From Acidobacteriota bacterium (GTDB lineage Bacteria; Acidobacteriota; Thermoanaerobaculia; Multivoradales; JAGPDF01): a DNA stretch of 33,976 nucleotides. How positions within the stretch are numbered: the stretch's first letter is position 1; each line of letters starts with the position of its first letter. The notes below the pieces were generated by a model. It did no database searches. It saw nothing but the letters and a program-made list of their open reading frames with translations, and was not told the origin of the DNA. This document shows positions 27,991 to 33,976 of this stretch, one piece after another. The position numbers and the translations under genes were made by a program. The DNA is taken from assembly GCA_014584695.1 (NCBI GenBank), contig JACTMI010000030.1, forward strand, positions 1-33,976. Direction: 5' to 3'.

Positions 27991-29046
27991 TCAAGAGGGC
28001 CGGAGGGCGTCCAGGGCGACGCCCTCGATTTCGAGTCGCAGATCCCCCCGGCAGATGTCGGCCTCGAGGTAGAGGACCGGCGTCGCGGCGGGCCAGCGCG
28101 CGGCGAGCGCCGAGCGGACGGCGTCGAAATCGCCCCGCTCGCGCAGGTAGACCTTCACCAGATCGAACCGCGCGCCGGCGCCGCCGAGCGGGCCCTCGGG
28201 CCGGCCCTCGGCCGCCGCAGCCGCGTCGAGCACGGCGTCGATGTTGACGAGCGTCTCCTCGAGCTGCGGCGCGAGCTCGCCCGGAAAGCGCGTCTCGTGG
28301 CCGAGCACGCTCGCGGTGCCGGAGAGCAAGAGCCCGCCGCCGAGCGCCGGTGGCAGGCGCGTGGCGCGCGCGAAGGTGGGCGCCACCGGGCCGTAGAGCG
28401 GCGGGTAGAGCCAGGCGCTGACCTGGCGCGGGTTCTCGACGTGGCGGCCGGGCGCGCGCGCGGCGGCGAAGGCGATGCGCAGCTCGGCGCCGGACGAGCC
28501 GACCGCCGAGGAGGCGGAGAAGCGCGCCGCGGCCTCGGCGCCGTAGCGCTCGACGAAGGCGTGCGCGCGGCCGGCGTTGAAGGCGCGGTAGCGCTCGACG
28601 CCACCCCGTTCGCCGGCGGCGCTCGGCGCGTCCTCGCGGTTGATCCCGGGCAGGTAGTTCCACATCCGCAGCAGGTGCGGCCGGCCGCGCTCGTGGGCGA
28701 GCGAGAGCAGCTCGCGGTAGGCGGTGAGGGCCGCCCGCTCGACCCCTTCGTCGAGCGGCCGCGCGAGCGCCCCGAACAGCACCTCGCCGTCGTCGGCCCA
28801 GGCGATGTCGCCGCGCCGTCCGCGCTCGACCGCGCCGCGGCGCCCGCTCCACCAGAGCTCGAGCCAGGCGCCGCCGCCCACCACCGGATTGGGGACTTCG
28901 AGCCAGGGCAGCTCGTGCCCCGGCGGCGGCGCCGGCTCGCCCGCCGGCGCGCCGTAGCGGACCGCGAGCAGCGCCCGACCGGCGCGCTGCTCCAGGCTCT
29001 CGCGCAGCGCCTCGACCGGCCCGCAGCCGAGCGCCAGCCCGAGCAT
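27991..29046 (-). CDS. FkbO/XanB2-like chorismatase (pteridine-dependent deoxygenase-like)
   Basis: Taking the ATG at 29046 gives 351 residues; a further in-frame ATG at 29103 is possible. The protein resembles the chorismatase family of FkbO, Hyg5 and XanB2, with a split RidA-like fold. Recognisable stretches are [16 protein letters not shown] followed by [14 protein letters not shown], then [19 protein letters not shown] and the FARAT block, and near the end [18 protein letters not shown]. These enzymes hydrolyse chorismate to a dihydroxycyclohexadiene acid or eliminate to 3-hydroxybenzoate/4-hydroxybenzoate, which prime polyene pigments (xanthomonadin, aryl polyenes) or feed ubiquinone. 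Which of these applies cannot be read from the sequence. No aryl-polyene genes lie near. It diverges from the integron integrase. Confidence 0.77.
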
Positions 29047-29173
29047 GGGCGCCACTCGCCTCACCCGGGTCCTGCCCAGCGGTGCCCCCACCGACGCGCG
29101 CACGCGGCGATTCTCTCAGGAATCGCCGCAATGCGGCGCAAAGTCGCGGAGGCCGCGGTCCGGCCGGGAGGAG

Positions 29174-30301
29174 ATGCGACCGCGGGGAGGCCCGGCGCCC
29201 GGCCCGCCCCCGCGAGGACGCCCCGCTGCCGTCACCACGGACCGCGCTCGCCCGCGCGAGCCGGGCGCGCCGGATCGCGTCTCTCGGCACGTGGAGCCGA
29301 CCCGCCGATCGCCCGCCACCGGCGCCGCCCCGCCGCGCGCGGCCGCGCCGCGCCTGCTCGAGCGCGTGCGGCTCGAAGCCCGCCGCCGGCGCCTGTCGCC
29401 GCGCACGGAGCGTGCGTACGCCGATTGGGTCCGCCGCTACGTCCGCTTCCACGGGCTGCGCCACCCGCGCGAGCTGGGCGCGGCCGAGGTCGCGGCCTTC
29501 CTGAGCCACCTCGCGGTCGAACGCGGCGTGGCGGCCTCGACCCAGAACCAGGCGCTCGCGGCGCTGCTCTTCCTCTACCGCCACGTCCTCGGCCTCGAGC
29601 TGGGCGAGCTTCCGGAGGCTGCTCGTGCGCGCCGCCCGAAACGCTTGCCGGTGGTCCTTTCCCGAGACGAAGCCCGGCGGTTGCTCGCCGAGCTGTGTGA
29701 CGAGCCACGGCTGGTCGCGCAACTGCTCTACGGCTCGGGACTGCGCCTGCTCGAAGCGCTGCGTCTGCGAGTGAAGGATCTCGACCTCGACCGCCGCGAG
29801 GTGCTCGTGCGCGCCGGCAAGGGGGACAAGGACCGCCGCACGATGCTCGCCGCGAGCCTCGTCGCGCCGCTGCGCGAGCAGCTCGAGCGCGCTCGTGCGC
29901 TCTGGCGCGCCGACCACGCGCGCGACCTTTCGGGCGTGCCGCTCCCACAAGCGCTGGCGCGCAAGTACCCGAGCGCGGCTCGCGAGTGGACCTGGTACTG
30001 GGTCTTCCCCGCGCCGAATCTGTGGCGCGACCCAGAGAACGGCACCGCCGGCCGCCACCACCTCCACGAAAGCCGCATCCAGCGCGCAGTCCGGCAGGCG
30101 GCTCGGACGGCGGGAATCGCCAAGCCGGTCTCTCCACACGCGCTACGTCACAGCTTCGCGACCCACCTCCTCGATTCGGGCTACGACATCCGCACCGTGC
30201 AGGAGCTCCTCGGCCACGCCAGCGTCCGCACGACGATGATCTACACGCACGTCCTCAACCGCGGCGGAATGGCTGTCCGCAGCCCCGCCGACGACTTGTA
30301 A
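29174..30301 (+). CDS. intI: Integron integrase (tyrosine recombinase)
   Basis: From the ATG at 29174 the protein is 375 residues; from the GTG at 29291 it is 336, close to the 337 of IntI1. With the GTG start the catalytic residues are R152, K177, H283, R286, H309 and Y318. Each is exactly six higher than in IntI1 (R146, K171, H277, R280, H303, Y312), so the core is collinear with no gap. The integron-specific insert before the HxxR box is present ([20 protein letters not shown] and then [14 protein letters not shown]), followed by [20 protein letters not shown] and [12 protein letters not shown]. The enzyme recombines single-stranded attC hairpins into attI. The extra Arg/Pro-rich leader from the ATG has no counterpart, and its purine-rich GGAGG is very close to the ATG, so the GTG is a serious alternative. 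Unusually, the gene points toward the cassettes. Confidence 0.96.
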
Positions 30302-30317
30302 TCCCCGAATTCGACAC

Positions 30318-30447
30318 GTTATGCGACAGCGCATGAAGCGTTTGACACCCGAGCCCCGAGGTCTAGAATCAACGAAGTGTCCGTGAGCAGAGCAGCTTCC
30401 CGGCCGCAAGGCCAGAGACGTTGGCACGTTATCCGACGTCGCATAAC
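30318..30447 (+). repeat. Repeated core-like boxes between intI and cassette 1
   Basis: CACGTTATGCGAC (30316-30328) recurs with one change as CACGTTATCCGAC (30426-30438). The second copy is followed by GTCGCATAAC (30438-30447), the exact reverse complement of GTTATGCGAC at 30318-30327. The boxes match the GTTATGC core at 30483. They may be integrase-binding repeats of attI or the ends of a mini-cassette. Confidence 0.6.
30342..30369 (+). promoter_or_regulatory. Candidate cassette promoter Pc
   Basis: A perfect -35 box TTGACA (30342-30347) is followed after 16 bp by TAGAAT (30364-30369), one base from the -10 consensus. It points toward the cassettes and starts 41 bp after the intI stop. Such a near-consensus sigma-70 promoter stands out in this GC-rich DNA. 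It would transcribe cassette 1 with a leader of roughly 110 bases. Confidence 0.75.
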
Positions 30448-30489
30448 GTCCAGCGCCGCCATCTCCCGCCGTCGAATCAGTAGTTATGC
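30426..30489 (+). other. attI: Candidate attI recombination site
   Basis: The crossover point is between G30483 and T30484 in GTTATGC (30483-30489), fixed by the complement GCATAAC in the attC of cassette 1. Upstream lie the imperfect palindrome GTTATCCGACGTCGCATAAC (30428-30447) and direct-repeat boxes, which could be the extra integrase sites seen in attI1. The left limit is a guess. Confidence 0.65.
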
Positions 30490-30977
30490 GGCAAGTTGAG
30501 CAGCCCAGCCGGCCGGTTCAAGCCGGCTATCTCTTCCTGGCCCTAGCGCGGAATCTCGTACAGCACGAAGTCGCTGTTCGCTGGGCTGACACGATGATCG
30601 TCGAATTGGAGCACCCGGAGTCTCTACTGCTGGAGCTTTCGACGAGCGGGAGGCGAGATGAGATTCTTCGAATACTCCGCGCCTTGGCCGGTGGCTCGAT
30701 CCCTCCCGATGCTGTGAAACTGGCCGCTGCGAAGATCGGTCAGCAGCTCGAGGGGGGTGAACTCTCGCCACTGGATGCCGCCTGCCACCTTGTGGGTGTG
30801 TACGATCTGGCGGAGGCCCGCGACTCCGCCGAGTACTGGCAGGCGGTGGCGCTCGAAGACGACTTGGAGCCAGGGTCCGTTCGGGACGAGTCGATACTGG
30901 CGGCAGTCAGGGAAGATCTGAAAGCGCTACTCAGGGAGTTCAAGGAGTATGGGGATCATCTGGGGTTTGCCGCATAA
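30486..30977 (+). CDS. Integron cassette 1 protein, unknown function
   Basis: I do not recognise this 163-residue protein. Its ATG lies inside the GTTATGC recombination core and its TAA inside the GCATAAC of its own attC, so the gene fills the cassette completely. The N-terminal third has WADTMIVELEHPESLLLEL, and the rest is acidic and helical with LSPLDAACHLVGVYDLAEA and a charged end (REDLKALLREFKEYGDH). No signal peptide, membrane helix or catalytic motif is seen. No ribosome site is visible before the ATG at 30486; an internal ATG at 30594 is another possible start. Its small, acidic and soluble nature would fit an immunity or antitoxin-like protein, but this is speculation. It is first after the promoter, so it should be the best expressed cassette. 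Confidence 0.75.
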   Translation: MRQVEQPSRPVQAGYLFLALARNLVQHEVAVRWADTMIVELEHPESLLLELSTSGRRDEILRILRALAGGSIPPDAVKLAAAKIGQQLEGGELSPLDAACHLVGVYDLAEARDSAEYWQAVALEDDLEPGSVRDESILAAVREDLKALLREFKEYGDHLGFAA

Positions 30978-31040
30978 CAACTCGCTCCAGCGGACAAGCG
31001 GGCTGTGCCCGCTTGCCGCTGAGCTCATGATTCGTTCGGC
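30972..31040 (+). repeat. attC site of cassette 1
   Basis: R'' is GCATAAC (30972-30978) and R' is GTTCGGC (31034-31040), with crossover after G31034. GCCGCATAAC is the exact complement of the cassette start GTTATGCGGC. L'' GCTCCAGCGG (30984-30993) pairs with L' CCGCTGAGC (31016-31024), leaving one extra C in L'' (the extrahelical base). The centre is a 9-bp stem CAAGCGGGC/GCCCGCTTG with a TGT loop. Confidence 0.95.
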
Positions 31041-31059
31041 GGCTCTGGGTGAATCTGCG

Positions 31060-31524
31060 ATGAAGCAGTCCTCCATGGCTCAGCCCCCCGCAGTTCATCG
31101 GCTCATTGCGGTGCTCTGGGCAGTAGTTGCAGCGGTCGCGCTGGTGATCGAACTCTTGGTCGTCGTCCCAATGCAAGCCGGTGAGCTTGTTTGGGCGTTT
31201 CGAGAGTTTGCCCACGAGATCACCCTTGGTGTCACACTGTCGGTGGTGTATGCGCTCAGTGTCTCCTGTGCCATAGCACGTTCTCGCAGGCCGGTGCTGC
31301 TCGCACCCGTGGCATGGGCAGTCGGTTCTGTCGGCACTTCCGCGGTCATGCTCATGGCTGCAGTGCTACGCGCTGGCCAGTGGCCCGAAGGCAAGGGAGC
31401 CCTACTCTTGCTTGAGTTAGCAGCGTCCGCGGCGCTTCTCGTGGCAGTGCCGGCTCTCTTGAGCGGCGTGGGCCTTGGTATTACAGTCAGAGCGCTTGAG
31501 GGTAAACGTGTGGCCGCTAGCTGA
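31060..31524 (+). CDS. Integron cassette 2 protein, four-helix membrane protein
   Basis: Starting at the ATG at 31060 gives 154 residues (MKQSSMAQPPAVHRL). Four hydrophobic helices are seen, at about residues 14-37, 47-64, 70-94 and 105-130. I do not recognise the family. An earlier in-frame ATG at 31027 lies inside the attC of cassette 1 and would only work in this array order; ATG 31075 is a further option. About 80 bp separate the stop from the attC, a longer gap than in most cassettes here. It is probably an inner-membrane protein. Codon use is less GC-biased than in the chromosome, which fits an acquired cassette. Confidence 0.72.
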   Translation: MKQSSMAQPPAVHRLIAVLWAVVAAVALVIELLVVVPMQAGELVWAFREFAHEITLGVTLSVVYALSVSCAIARSRRPVLLAPVAWAVGSVGTSAVMLMAAVLRAGQWPEGKGALLLLELAASAALLVAVPALLSGVGLGITVRALEGKRVAAS

Positions 31525-31605
31525 AGCCAGAGCGGTAGTCGGCGCAGCCGCAACACACGCGCGGCTCGGCTCGACCTCGCTGTGGCGGTACGGTGGCGCG
31601 AAGCC

Positions 31606-31679
31606 GCCGAACTACACGCTCCACCGGACGCCACCGGTCGCTCCGCTCCCGGTGTCGCCGGTGAGCTCTGGCGTTAGCA
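31606..31679 (+). repeat. attC site of cassette 2
   Basis: R'' is GCCGAAC (31606-31612) and R' is GTTAGCA (31673-31679). AGCCGCCGAAC (31602-31612) is the exact complement of the cassette start GTTCGGCGGCT. L'' GCTCCACCGG (31618-31627) pairs with L' CCGGTGAGC (31658-31666) with one extra C. Confidence 0.95.
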
Positions 31680-31709
31680 ATTTTGGCCTGATCTTTTCTA
31701 AAGATAGCG

Positions 31710-32015
31710 ATGAATAAGCAATTACTGGTCATTAATTCGGGATATGCTGTATTGGCAGCGATTTTCTTAATATTGGCTTCAATGGCATTTCTCCGTGGTG
31801 GCCATCCGCCAGGATATGGAATAGTAAATTTGTTTATTCTCATCATTGTTTATCCGATATCAGTTTATGGTTCTATTGTTGGGCTGAAAACGACGATTGA
31901 TTCTTTATTGGTATCAGCCAAGAGATATTTCATAATGGTTGGTGTGTGTTTAGCCTTTGCTTTGTTTTCTACAACTCTTTTTGTATTCAAATTTGTTTTT
32001 GGCAAGGCAATCTAA
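31710..32015 (+). CDS. Integron cassette 3 protein, small AT-rich membrane protein
   Basis: The protein has 101 residues with three probable membrane helices: residues ~5-28 (LLVINSGYAVLAAIFLILAS), ~37-58 and ~72-95. I do not recognise the family. The DNA is sharply different from everything around it: two 60-base lines in the gene count 25 and 23 G+C, about 40%, and codons such as TTA, ATA and TTT are common. This is strong evidence for origin in a low-GC genome. The stop lies five bases before the attC. No strong ribosome site is seen before the ATG. Confidence 0.78.
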   Translation: MNKQLLVINSGYAVLAAIFLILASMAFLRGGHPPGYGIVNLFILIIVYPISVYGSIVGLKTTIDSLLVSAKRYFIMVGVCLAFALFSTTLFVFKFVFGKAI

Positions 32016-32019
32016 AAAT

Positions 32020-32079
32020 TGCTAACAAGTCGTTCAAGCCGACGGCGCTACGCGCCGCGGCTTAACTCCAGCGTTATAC
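32020..32079 (+). repeat. attC site of cassette 3
   Basis: The site is 60 bp. R'' is TGCTAAC (32020-32026) and R' is GTTATAC (32073-32079). AAAATTGCTAAC is the exact 12-base complement of the cassette start GTTAGCAATTTT. L'' GTTCAAGCCG (32032-32041) pairs with L' CGGCTTAAC (32058-32066) with one extra C. The inner stem is CGGCGC/GCGCCG with a TAC loop. The TTAACTC right half differs from the TGAGCTC right half of attC 1, 2 and 4. Confidence 0.95.
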
Positions 32080-32092
32080 GGCCATGTGAGTG

Positions 32093-32545
32093 ATGAGTAG
32101 AGTCCATGCTGTTCCCGCCCTCATTCGCGAGCTCTATTCGATCGTCGATCGACTTCAATCTCTGTTTCCTGAGCGGAAATTCACACCTGACGGCCATCTC
32201 GTCGGAAGCATCGGGGTCGTTCTGGCCGCTCATCACTACGGCGTCAGGCCGCTGCCCGAGTCAACGCCGGTTCACGACTCCGAAGCAGTTGACGGCCGAA
32301 TGGTGCAGATCAAGTTGACCCAGGCGGGTTCGGTGGGCCTGAGGGCAGAGCCACAGCACCTTCTCGTGCTGCTCCTTTCTCGCGAGGGCACCGTCTCCGA
32401 GGTCTTCAACGGTCCAGGTTCGATCGCTTGGTCGAGCGCGGGCAAGATGCAGAGCAATGGTCAACGGTCAATCTCAGTGAGTCGCCTGCGCAACCTCATG
32501 AACTCCGTTCCTCAAGGGGCTCGGCTTGAGCGGCTGGCCGTATAA
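32093..32545 (+). CDS. Integron cassette 4 protein, DUF6998-like
   Basis: The ATG at 32093 gives 150 residues; a GTG one codon earlier is also possible. The block RKFTPDGHLVGSIG (residues 28-41), then HD at 61-62 and VQIKLTQAG (71-79), and later NGPGSIAW with SRLRNLM, matches a family I know as DUF6998, which is frequent in integron cassettes. The order acidic residue, D62 and Q72-I-K74 looks like a PD-(D/E)XK nuclease core. Where I recall the family having Glu after SIG, this protein has Val42, so it may be inactive. The TAA stop sits inside the attC R'' box. Function is unknown; a nuclease-fold DNA-binding or defence role is an inference. Confidence 0.75.
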   Translation: MSRVHAVPALIRELYSIVDRLQSLFPERKFTPDGHLVGSIGVVLAAHHYGVRPLPESTPVHDSEAVDGRMVQIKLTQAGSVGLRAEPQHLLVLLLSREGTVSEVFNGPGSIAWSSAGKMQSNGQRSISVSRLRNLMNSVPQGARLERLAV

Positions 32546-32639
32546 CCAATCGCTGCACCGGACGCGCCAGTGTGCGCCTCGACCGGCTGCGCCGGTCGGC
32601 CGCTGTGGGGCGCGCCGGTGAGCTCATGATCCGTTAGGC
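32540..32639 (+). repeat. attC site of cassette 4
   Basis: R'' is GTATAAC (32540-32546) and R' is GTTAGGC (32633-32639). GGCCGTATAAC (32536-32546) is the exact complement of the cassette start GTTATACGGCC. L'' GCTGCACCGG (32552-32561) pairs with L' CCGGTGAGC (32615-32623); the extra base here is G rather than C. An inner 8-bp stem CGACCGGC/GCCGGTCG (32580-32598) has a TGC loop. Confidence 0.95.
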
Positions 32640-32661
32640 GCCTCAAATACATTCCTGCCCC

Positions 32662-33546
32662 ATGAGCCTCAAATACGAAAAGCTGTCGCCGATCACGATC
32701 AAGGGTCACTCTTCACTCAATGAGAAGTGGGTCCAAGACAGAATTGCCGACGACCCGCAGATTTTGGGTCTCGGTGACGTGATCCTCAAGGACCGCGAGC
32801 GCAGTCAGCCTCGGGCTGGAAGGTTGGACTTGCTGCTCCAAGATGCTGACGGCAACCGCCGGTACGAGGTCGAAGTGCAGCTTGGCAAGACGGATGAGTC
32901 CCACATTATCCGGACCATCGAGTACTGGGACATCGAGCGCAAGCGGTATCCGCAGTATGAGCACACCGCTGTGATCGTGGCAGAGGAGATCACGAGCCGA
33001 TTCTTGAACGTCATCTCCCTATTCAATGGCACCATCCCACTGATGGCCGTTCAAATGCGGGCGCTGCAACTCGGCAATGCGGTGTCACTTGTCTTCACGA
33101 CCGTCCTGGATCAAGTGATGCTCGGCCTTGTGGACGAGGATGAAGAGGTTCACGAGGTGACAGACCGAGCGTACTGGGAGACCCGGGGTTCCAAGAGCAC
33201 CGTTGGCATGGCCGATGAAGTCCTTGAAATCCTCCGAACGCTGGATCCAACGTTGGAGCTGAAGTTCAACAAGTTCTATGTCGGCCTTGCCAGAATGGGG
33301 CAGCCTGACAACTTTGTTGTTCTCCGACCGAAGAAAAAGGACTTGCGCATCGAGGCCCGCGTAGACAAGGACCCCACAATCGAGCAGAAACTGGAAGCCG
33401 CCGGCCTTGACCTGATGGACTACGACGAACGATCCGGTCGGTACCGCGTTCGCCTGGCCAAGGGCGATGTAAAGAAGCACGCCGAGGTATTGACTGAGCT
33501 GCTCGCCGCAGCGCATTCGAAGGCCACTGGTGGCGGAGGCGCCTAA
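32662..33546 (+). CDS. Integron cassette 5 protein, PD-(D/E)XK nuclease-like
   Basis: The protein is 294 residues. The N-terminal half looks like a restriction-endonuclease-like fold: E21 in LNEKWVQDRIADDPQ, D56 in AGRLDLLLQD, and E69-V-E71-V-Q73 in YEVEVQLG. These would be the metal ligands, with Gln73 in the place of the usual Lys. A conserved-looking block follows (SHIIRTIEYWDIERKRYPQY). The C-terminal third (FNKFYVGLARMGQPDNFVVL and the lysine-rich PKKKDLRIEARV) is reminiscent of DUF5655-type domains, with low certainty. Proteins of this kind are widespread in mobile DNA and are often annotated only as hypothetical. The TAA stop is inside the attC. It could act in defence, but no partner methylase or other module is present in the cassette. 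Confidence 0.8.
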   Translation: MSLKYEKLSPITIKGHSSLNEKWVQDRIADDPQILGLGDVILKDRERSQPRAGRLDLLLQDADGNRRYEVEVQLGKTDESHIIRTIEYWDIERKRYPQYEHTAVIVAEEITSRFLNVISLFNGTIPLMAVQMRALQLGNAVSLVFTTVLDQVMLGLVDEDEEVHEVTDRAYWETRGSKSTVGMADEVLEILRTLDPTLELKFNKFYVGLARMGQPDNFVVLRPKKKDLRIEARVDKDPTIEQKLEAAGLDLMDYDERSGRYRVRLAKGDVKKHAEVLTELLAAAHSKATGGGGA

Positions 33547-33669
33547 CCCCTCGTTCAACCGGACCCGCTACGGCAGGCCACCTTGGCCCGGACTGAGGTA
33601 CGCGGTACATTTTCTCAGTCCGGGCCAAGGCGTCCTGCCTCCGCGGGCCGGTTAACTCGAACGTTAGGC
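33541..33669 (+). repeat. attC site of cassette 5, long type
   Basis: This 129-bp site has R'' GCCTAAC (33541-33547) and R' GTTAGGC (33663-33669). GAGGCGCCTAAC is the exact 12-base complement of the cassette start. L'' GTTCAACCGG (33553-33562) pairs with L' CCGGTTAAC (33648-33656) with one extra C. The centre has a perfect 17-bp stem (33581-33597 with 33614-33630) and an outer GGCAGG/CCTGCC pair, as in long VCR-like sites. Confidence 0.95.
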
Positions 33670-33976
33670 CGCCACATCTCCAGCGGTTTCCTTCCAAGAA
33701 TTTCTCTGTTGTCCGCCGCCTGGCGGCTCGGCAGTCGAATCACCCGTGGTGCAGCGTTTCGCCTTCTCGCGAGGTCGAGCCGGAGGTGGTTCGCGTCCGT
33801 GCCGGTTCTGGCTTTCGGCGGTTGGGCAGCGCTGGTTGCCTGGGAGCGGCAGTTGCTCTACGCTTTTGCTGTGCGGCCTAACACCTATCAGGCCTCCGGG
33901 TGTCAAGGGGTAGAGCTTTCCTGAGGCGAGCTTCGTGGCTTGCCGGTTGTTTTTCGTTGCCGTGGTTCGCTCGTCG
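33664..33976 (+). other. Integron cassette 6, without a convincing gene (runs off the window)
   Basis: The cassette starts at T33664. Its R'' GCCTAAC at 33876-33882 extends to GCGGCCTAAC, the exact complement of the start GTTAGGCCGC. This leaves only ~210 bp for a gene. The plus-strand frame across it has no ATG and runs through the attC; possible starts are TTG 33709 or GTG 33799. The minus-strand frame begins inside the attC. It may be non-coding, carry a promoter or small RNA, or be a gene remnant. L'', L' and R' of its attC are not clear before the window ends. Confidence 0.7.
33876..33976 (+). repeat. Start of the attC site of cassette 6 (incomplete)
   Basis: Only R'' (GCCTAAC, 33876-33882) can be supported. 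The following bases do not show the GTTC or GCTC L'' box seen in the other five sites, and no R' GTT core with a paired L' is found before 33976. The site may be degenerate or long. Confidence 0.55.

Follow-up and report, generated by a model that had tools for sequence, protein, structure and literature searches.

A single-gene integron cassette of an Acidobacteriota bacterium codes for a two-domain protein, in which a predicted NucS/EndoMS-like nuclease domain with two exchanged active-site positions is joined to a C-terminal DUF5655 domain. Relatives of the gene are spread across many phyla, occur both in integrons and in defence islands, and are enriched beside R-M genes. On this circumstantial evidence we lean, by a modest degree, towards a role of the protein in defence.

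Gene and cassette setting

The window, i.e. the whole stretch of 33,976 nucleotides analysed here, is an entire contig ending at position 33976, and the cassette array, which begins after the intI gene, is readable to that point (Table 1). The open reading frame called in a first-pass annotation, and its description there as a stand-alone cassette, are both confirmed: the gene starts with ATG and codes for 294 residues; it is the single ORF between two attC sites, and the array has an intI gene; and its ATG lies 22 bp past the upstream attC while its stop codon overlaps the downstream one, which is the usual cassette geometry. The E values of the two flanking sites are those of members of the set of 17 attC sites from which the covariance model was built, all 17 having the same conserved paired architecture.

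Table 1. Features of the predicted nuclease-gene cassette and its surroundings (positions in the window)
Feature	Position	Strand	Basis or remark
intI, integron integrase gene	29045..30301	+	TIGR02249, 450.8 bits
Strong promoter-like site, candidate Pc	30342..30369	+	TTGACA-16-TAGAAT, 11/12, pointing into array; function inferred
attC upstream of the gene (end of cassette 4)	32540..32639	+	Covariance-model match, E 9e-14
Predicted nuclease gene	32662..33546	+	ATG start; 294-aa two-domain protein, predicted PD-(D/E)XK nuclease + DUF5655
N-terminal nuclease domain, aa 16-142, NucS/EndoMS-like	32707..33087	+	AlphaFold2 model, VIA comparison
E21 codon (= NucS E127)	32722..32724	+	E21 in 68/68 relatives
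D56 codon (= NucS D160)	32827..32829	+	D56 in 67/67 relatives, plus one gap
E71-V72-Q73 codons (= NucS E174-L-K176; Lys to Gln)	32872..32880	+	E71, Q73 in 68/68
R84-TIE-Y88 codons (= NucS Q187-xxx-Y191; Gln to Arg)	32911..32925	+	R84, Y88 in 68/68
C-terminal domain, aa 167-292, DUF5655	33160..33537	+	Profile match; fold like YdhG/DUF1801, YjbR, T4 MotA DNA-binding domain
attC of the nuclease-gene cassette	33541..33669	+	Covariance-model match, E 1e-12; first bases overlap the stop codon of the gene

The predicted nuclease gene is the fifth cassette, ~2.3 kb from the candidate Pc, and its G+C content (57% vs. 73% for the upstream chromosome) is consistent with a foreign origin. The usual orientation of intI is divergent from the cassettes; here intI shares the strand of the cassettes (30486-33976) and has its 3′ end toward the array, an “inverse” arrangement. 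Rfam microRNA matches near 33564-33647 were below the cutoffs and were rejected as an artefact of the long palindromic attC hairpin.

The first-pass annotation had paired the gene with cassette 4, as two neighbouring cassettes with nuclease-like folds. Cassette 4 (32090-32545) belongs to DUF6998 (158.4 bits), and its D63 and Q73-I-K75 resemble the PD-(D/E)XK motif; in the helix, Val43 takes the place of a Glu kept by six of the seven aligned members, and a putative site residue may have been lost in this copy. The AlphaFold model of cassette 4, built from two sequences, has a pLDDT of 37, too low for reading a fold; a nuclease fold in cassette 4, and with it the pair, is no more than a possibility. 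DUF6998 relatives were seen in two other settings: in L109, a viral contig, beside a gene resembling those of phage head proteins, and in L111, a Roseomonas plasmid, beside a type ISP restriction enzyme. Cassette 3 (31710-32015), with 36% G+C in a genome of 73% G+C, looks like a small membrane protein from a very different donor. The listed ORF 30949-31524 begins within cassette 1 and crosses the attC at 30972-31040, and the true start of the cassette 2 gene is probably further in.

Predicted fold and active site

The AlphaFold2 model of the 294-residue protein, made from 68 sequences, has a mean pLDDT of 88.9 and a pTM of 0.60; because of this pTM and of a weak linker (residues 153-163, pLDDT <50), the model does not fix the arrangement of the two domains. 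The N-terminal domain has the core α-β fold of PD-(D/E)XK proteins, and the best PDB matches of the model are PD-(D/E)XK enzymes. The closest are the nuclease domains of EndoMS/NucS, the mismatch endonuclease of archaea and actinobacteria (PF01939; PDB 5gke, 2vld): in the VIA comparison, residues 16-142 match 5gke_A with Z 14.6 (2.2 Å over 114 residues) and 2vld_A with Z 14.4, and the next-best families, other PD-(D/E)XK proteins, are clearly lower (Z ≤10). The guess of a PD-(D/E)XK-like fold in the first-pass annotation was thus right for residues 16-142, and structure prediction, the check it had proposed, reveals the nuclease core. The modelled fold is very strongly supported as NucS/EndoMS-like. 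This likeness is structural: neither phmmer nor profile searches linked the protein to solved structures, hhalign against archaeal NucS found no significant sequence similarity, and PF01939 (NucS_C) was not among the Pfam matches of the protein at E up to 1.

As had been proposed, the C-terminal domain is unlike the nuclease domain. It scores 23.9 bits against DUF5655 (PF18899), whose curated cutoff is 24, and 57 of 68 relatives match the family at E up to 1 (best 1.1e-8). Its structural matches are YdhG/DUF1801 (Z 8.5), YjbR-like proteins (Z 7.5-8.2), and the T4 MotA DNA-binding domain (Z 7.0); as these Z values are near the level of common arrangements, we infer, rather than read from the fold, that this domain binds DNA. 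Foldseek matched the model over both domains to Gp54 of Bacillus phage G (BFVD G3MBC4, 296 aa; E 4.4e-14), and it is possible, judging from the models, that Gp54 is a phage-borne version of the nuclease-DUF5655 architecture.

The active-site residues of Pyrococcus abyssi NucS have been described as E127, D160, E174, K176, Q187, and Y191 (PMC7343888). We checked this numbering against the 2vld sequence and mapped the residues onto our protein by hand, from their spacing and the VIA alignment ranges, because the sequence profiles gave no significant alignment and a residue-level structural alignment was not at hand. The stretch from E71 to Y88 maps onto NucS without any gap and has the NucS spacing. 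The proposal that E21, D56, and E71-V-Q73 form a plausible nuclease site is borne out, with the positions correctly placed: E21, E71, Q73, R84, and Y88 are invariant in all 68 aligned relatives and D56 in all 67 that cover the position, an invariance of putative site residues far beyond chance for relatives with identity as low as 43%. On this mapping, two positions are changed together relative to NucS: on the strand Gln replaces Lys, as the first-pass annotation had noted, and on the helix Arg replaces Gln.

Loss of the Lys may also signal lost activity. The PD-EXQ variant is on record in BglII, and in CoiA an EXQ motif is accompanied by a conserved Arg at a swapped-Lys position (PMC1189080); a variant with Gln for Lys is thus of a known kind, found here with a NucS-type core. 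We consider it likely that the predicted nuclease is catalytically active.

Spread and genomic neighbourhood

At least 294 related stretches were found in genome contigs; the best 80 of them, 57-80% identical, come from one archaeal record and otherwise from bacteria belonging to many phyla. Relatives also occur in four IMG/VR contigs and 12 plasmid records, and tblastn found none in phage records. The occurrence of close relatives in different phyla indicates frequent transfer, although many of the records are MAGs and possibly misbinned. The distribution around the host is patchy (the gene is present in just 3 of its 99 relatives), and the window's genome and each of 34 others have one copy.

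By the covariance model, 14 distinct loci have an attC site beside the homologue, namely the window and 13 others (L002, L003, L005, L011, L014, L018, L019, L021, L028, L029, L038, L060, and L072; L006 repeats L005 and was counted once); part of these adjacent sites had entered the building of the model, and their arrays hold many more sites that had not. In the window, L005, L018, L019, L038, and L060, attC flanks the homologue on both sides. A strict base-pairing screen for attC had a random rate of 1.5%; together with the covariance model it supersedes our first screens, whose loose criteria gave a random rate of 24%. A quick maximum-likelihood tree requires no fewer than nine changes of the cassette state, which probably reflect repeated entry into integrons.

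The first-pass annotation had named co-occurrence with defence genes as a check on a defence role. We examined 34 genomes, nearly all of them carrying a non-cassette copy, with 157 R-M domain matches (N6_Mtase/Eco57I/HSDR_N), and the co-occurrence was found: 12 of the 34 homologues lie within 10 kb of an R-M gene, vs. 0.92 expected (tail p 1e-11), and 10 lie within 5 kb, vs. 0.5 expected. Two of the 12 copies are from closely related cyanobacteria, and the cassette-like L011 is among the 34, with no R-M gene near its copy. Of 62 ParE toxins in the same genomes, taken as a mobile accessory control and counted by hand, 3 have an R-M gene within 10 kb; the difference from the homologue has a Fisher p of 2e-4, or 4e-4 with the cyanobacteria merged. 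A gene confined to variable islands could show R-M enrichment anyway, a concern that the ParE control lowers and does not remove. The matched-genome test replaced unmatched PADLOC scans of neighbours against 72 random proteins, which were too coarse.

In several loci the homologue directly follows an R-M or BREX gene: BrxL (L082, with a 3-bp gap), a type ISP enzyme (L035, L074), an Eco57I-type enzyme (L023), or HsdM-type methylases (L066, L068), with gaps that run from −6 to 58 bp where the two genes are closest. In two Synechococcus genomes (L008, L034) it slightly overlaps the end of the TerB-domain gene upstream of it, and this gene is a possible operon partner. These close placements suggest an alternative, namely that the protein is a restriction subunit or accessory nuclease of the neighbouring R-M or BREX system and needs its methylase or specificity subunit, the cassette copies being displaced or relying on host methylation. 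We consider this unlikely: the partners vary between loci, most copies have no such partner, and 14 loci are cassettes with no visible methylase partner in the same cassette. No recurrent partner gene was found, the largest neighbour cluster covering 8 of 84 loci; the gene is therefore an apparent guest in defence loci and not a fixed subunit, and its mechanism is not definable from its neighbours.

Candidate defence profiles point in the same direction as the neighbourhood. At E up to 1, PADLOC PDC-S18 matches 44 of 68 relatives and PDC-S11 up to 22 of 68; the best match among the relatives has an E value of 1.4e-12 over two thirds of the protein, and the best to PDC-S18 is that of L051 (45.5 bits), whose residues 102-291 are colinear with positions 125-307 of the 307-position profile. 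The window protein itself matches with E 0.012, below significance. A search of the accessible literature found no tested function for PDC-S18 or PDC-S11, and likewise no paper on DUF5655. The earlier suggestion of a defence or anti-plasmid cassette is thus supported in part: the enrichment, the BREX and R-M neighbours, and the profile matches favour defence, and nothing points specifically to an anti-plasmid function.

Proposed function and relation to known systems

We propose, with slightly better than even confidence, that the cassette encodes a methylase-free, single-gene endonuclease directed against foreign DNA, most likely that of phages. In this proposal E21, D56, and E71 of the NucS/EndoMS-like domain would hold a divalent metal for DNA cleavage; Q73 and R84 would substitute for the usual Lys-Gln arrangement, with Y88 kept; and the protein would form a dimer, by analogy with NucS. 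The DUF5655 domain probably recognises the target or a partner. As no methylase travels with the cassette, self-DNA would have to be spared in another way, for which recognition of modification or structure is the likeliest: the enzyme probably works in a type IV-like or structure-specific manner, cutting only at modified bases or at unusual structures that arise as phage DNA replicates, although the specific trigger is a guess. A broader version is tentative and, in our judgement, less likely than not as a whole: a widely mobile family of methylase-free defence proteins, with a rearranged NucS-like site and a DUF5655 domain that reads a phage-specific DNA modification or structure, spread via defence islands and integron cassettes across phyla.

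The closest fold is that of a mismatch endonuclease, and the EXQ-plus-Arg pattern is common to CoiA; the protein might accordingly be a horizontally transferred nuclease of DNA repair (NucS-like) or DNA uptake (CoiA-like), with no part in defence. The patchy occurrence among relatives of the host, the enrichment beside R-M genes, and the lack of the N-terminal DNA-binding domain of NucS make this improbable. Least probable is a catalytically inactive PD-(D/E)XK DNA-binding protein, e.g. an anti-restriction or regulatory one, which would fit the absent catalytic Lys, the MotA-like C-terminal fold, and the Foldseek pairing with phage Gp54, since invariant acidic residues, Q73, R84, and Y88 over 68 sequences are unexpected where catalysis has been lost, and EXQ enzymes such as BglII are active.

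The proposed defence endonuclease is a concrete and cheaply testable candidate: one small gene with predicted catalytic residues, found in many phyla both in integrons and in defence islands. If it is active, a function would be linked to DUF5655 proteins; it would show how a nuclease spares self-DNA without a methylase; and it would serve to test if a NucS-type site can catalyse with the paired Gln/Arg exchange. The majority of integron cassettes are of unknown function, and in one V. cholerae array about a tenth of them proved to be anti-phage (PMC12409362).

PD-(D/E)XK nucleases, possible integron defence cassettes, and relatives of catalogued candidates are kinds already known; what sets this case apart is that two active-site positions are exchanged as a pair, that these two domains are joined, and that islands as well as integrons carry the gene across phyla. 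The protein shares with EndoMS/NucS the fold of the nuclease domain and the residues E127, D160, E174, and Y191 (kept as E21, D56, E71, and Y88), and differs from it in Gln73 for Lys176 and Arg84 for Gln187, so that the catalytic set of D, E, and Lys is incomplete. The domain order differs as well: the nuclease domain of NucS is its C-terminal half and the DNA-binding domain is N-terminal, whereas our protein has its nuclease domain at the N-terminus and DUF5655 in place of the NucS DNA-binding domain. Gln at the Lys position is shared with CoiA, which acts in DNA uptake, and with the type II restriction enzyme BglII, and a conserved Arg is shared with CoiA, where it stands at a swapped-Lys position; this is a likeness of motif. 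PDC-S18 and PDC-S11, candidate single-gene families of PADLOC with profiles of 302-358 residues, show remote, partial, and colinear matches to relatives, PDC-S18 covering their C-terminal two thirds and PDC-S11 the nuclease half. Finally, as a small single-gene cassette of unknown function, the gene resembles, in cassette type, the anti-phage cassettes described for V. cholerae (at least 16 of 179 integron cassettes with anti-phage activity), V. parahaemolyticus, and mobile integrons (PMC12409362).
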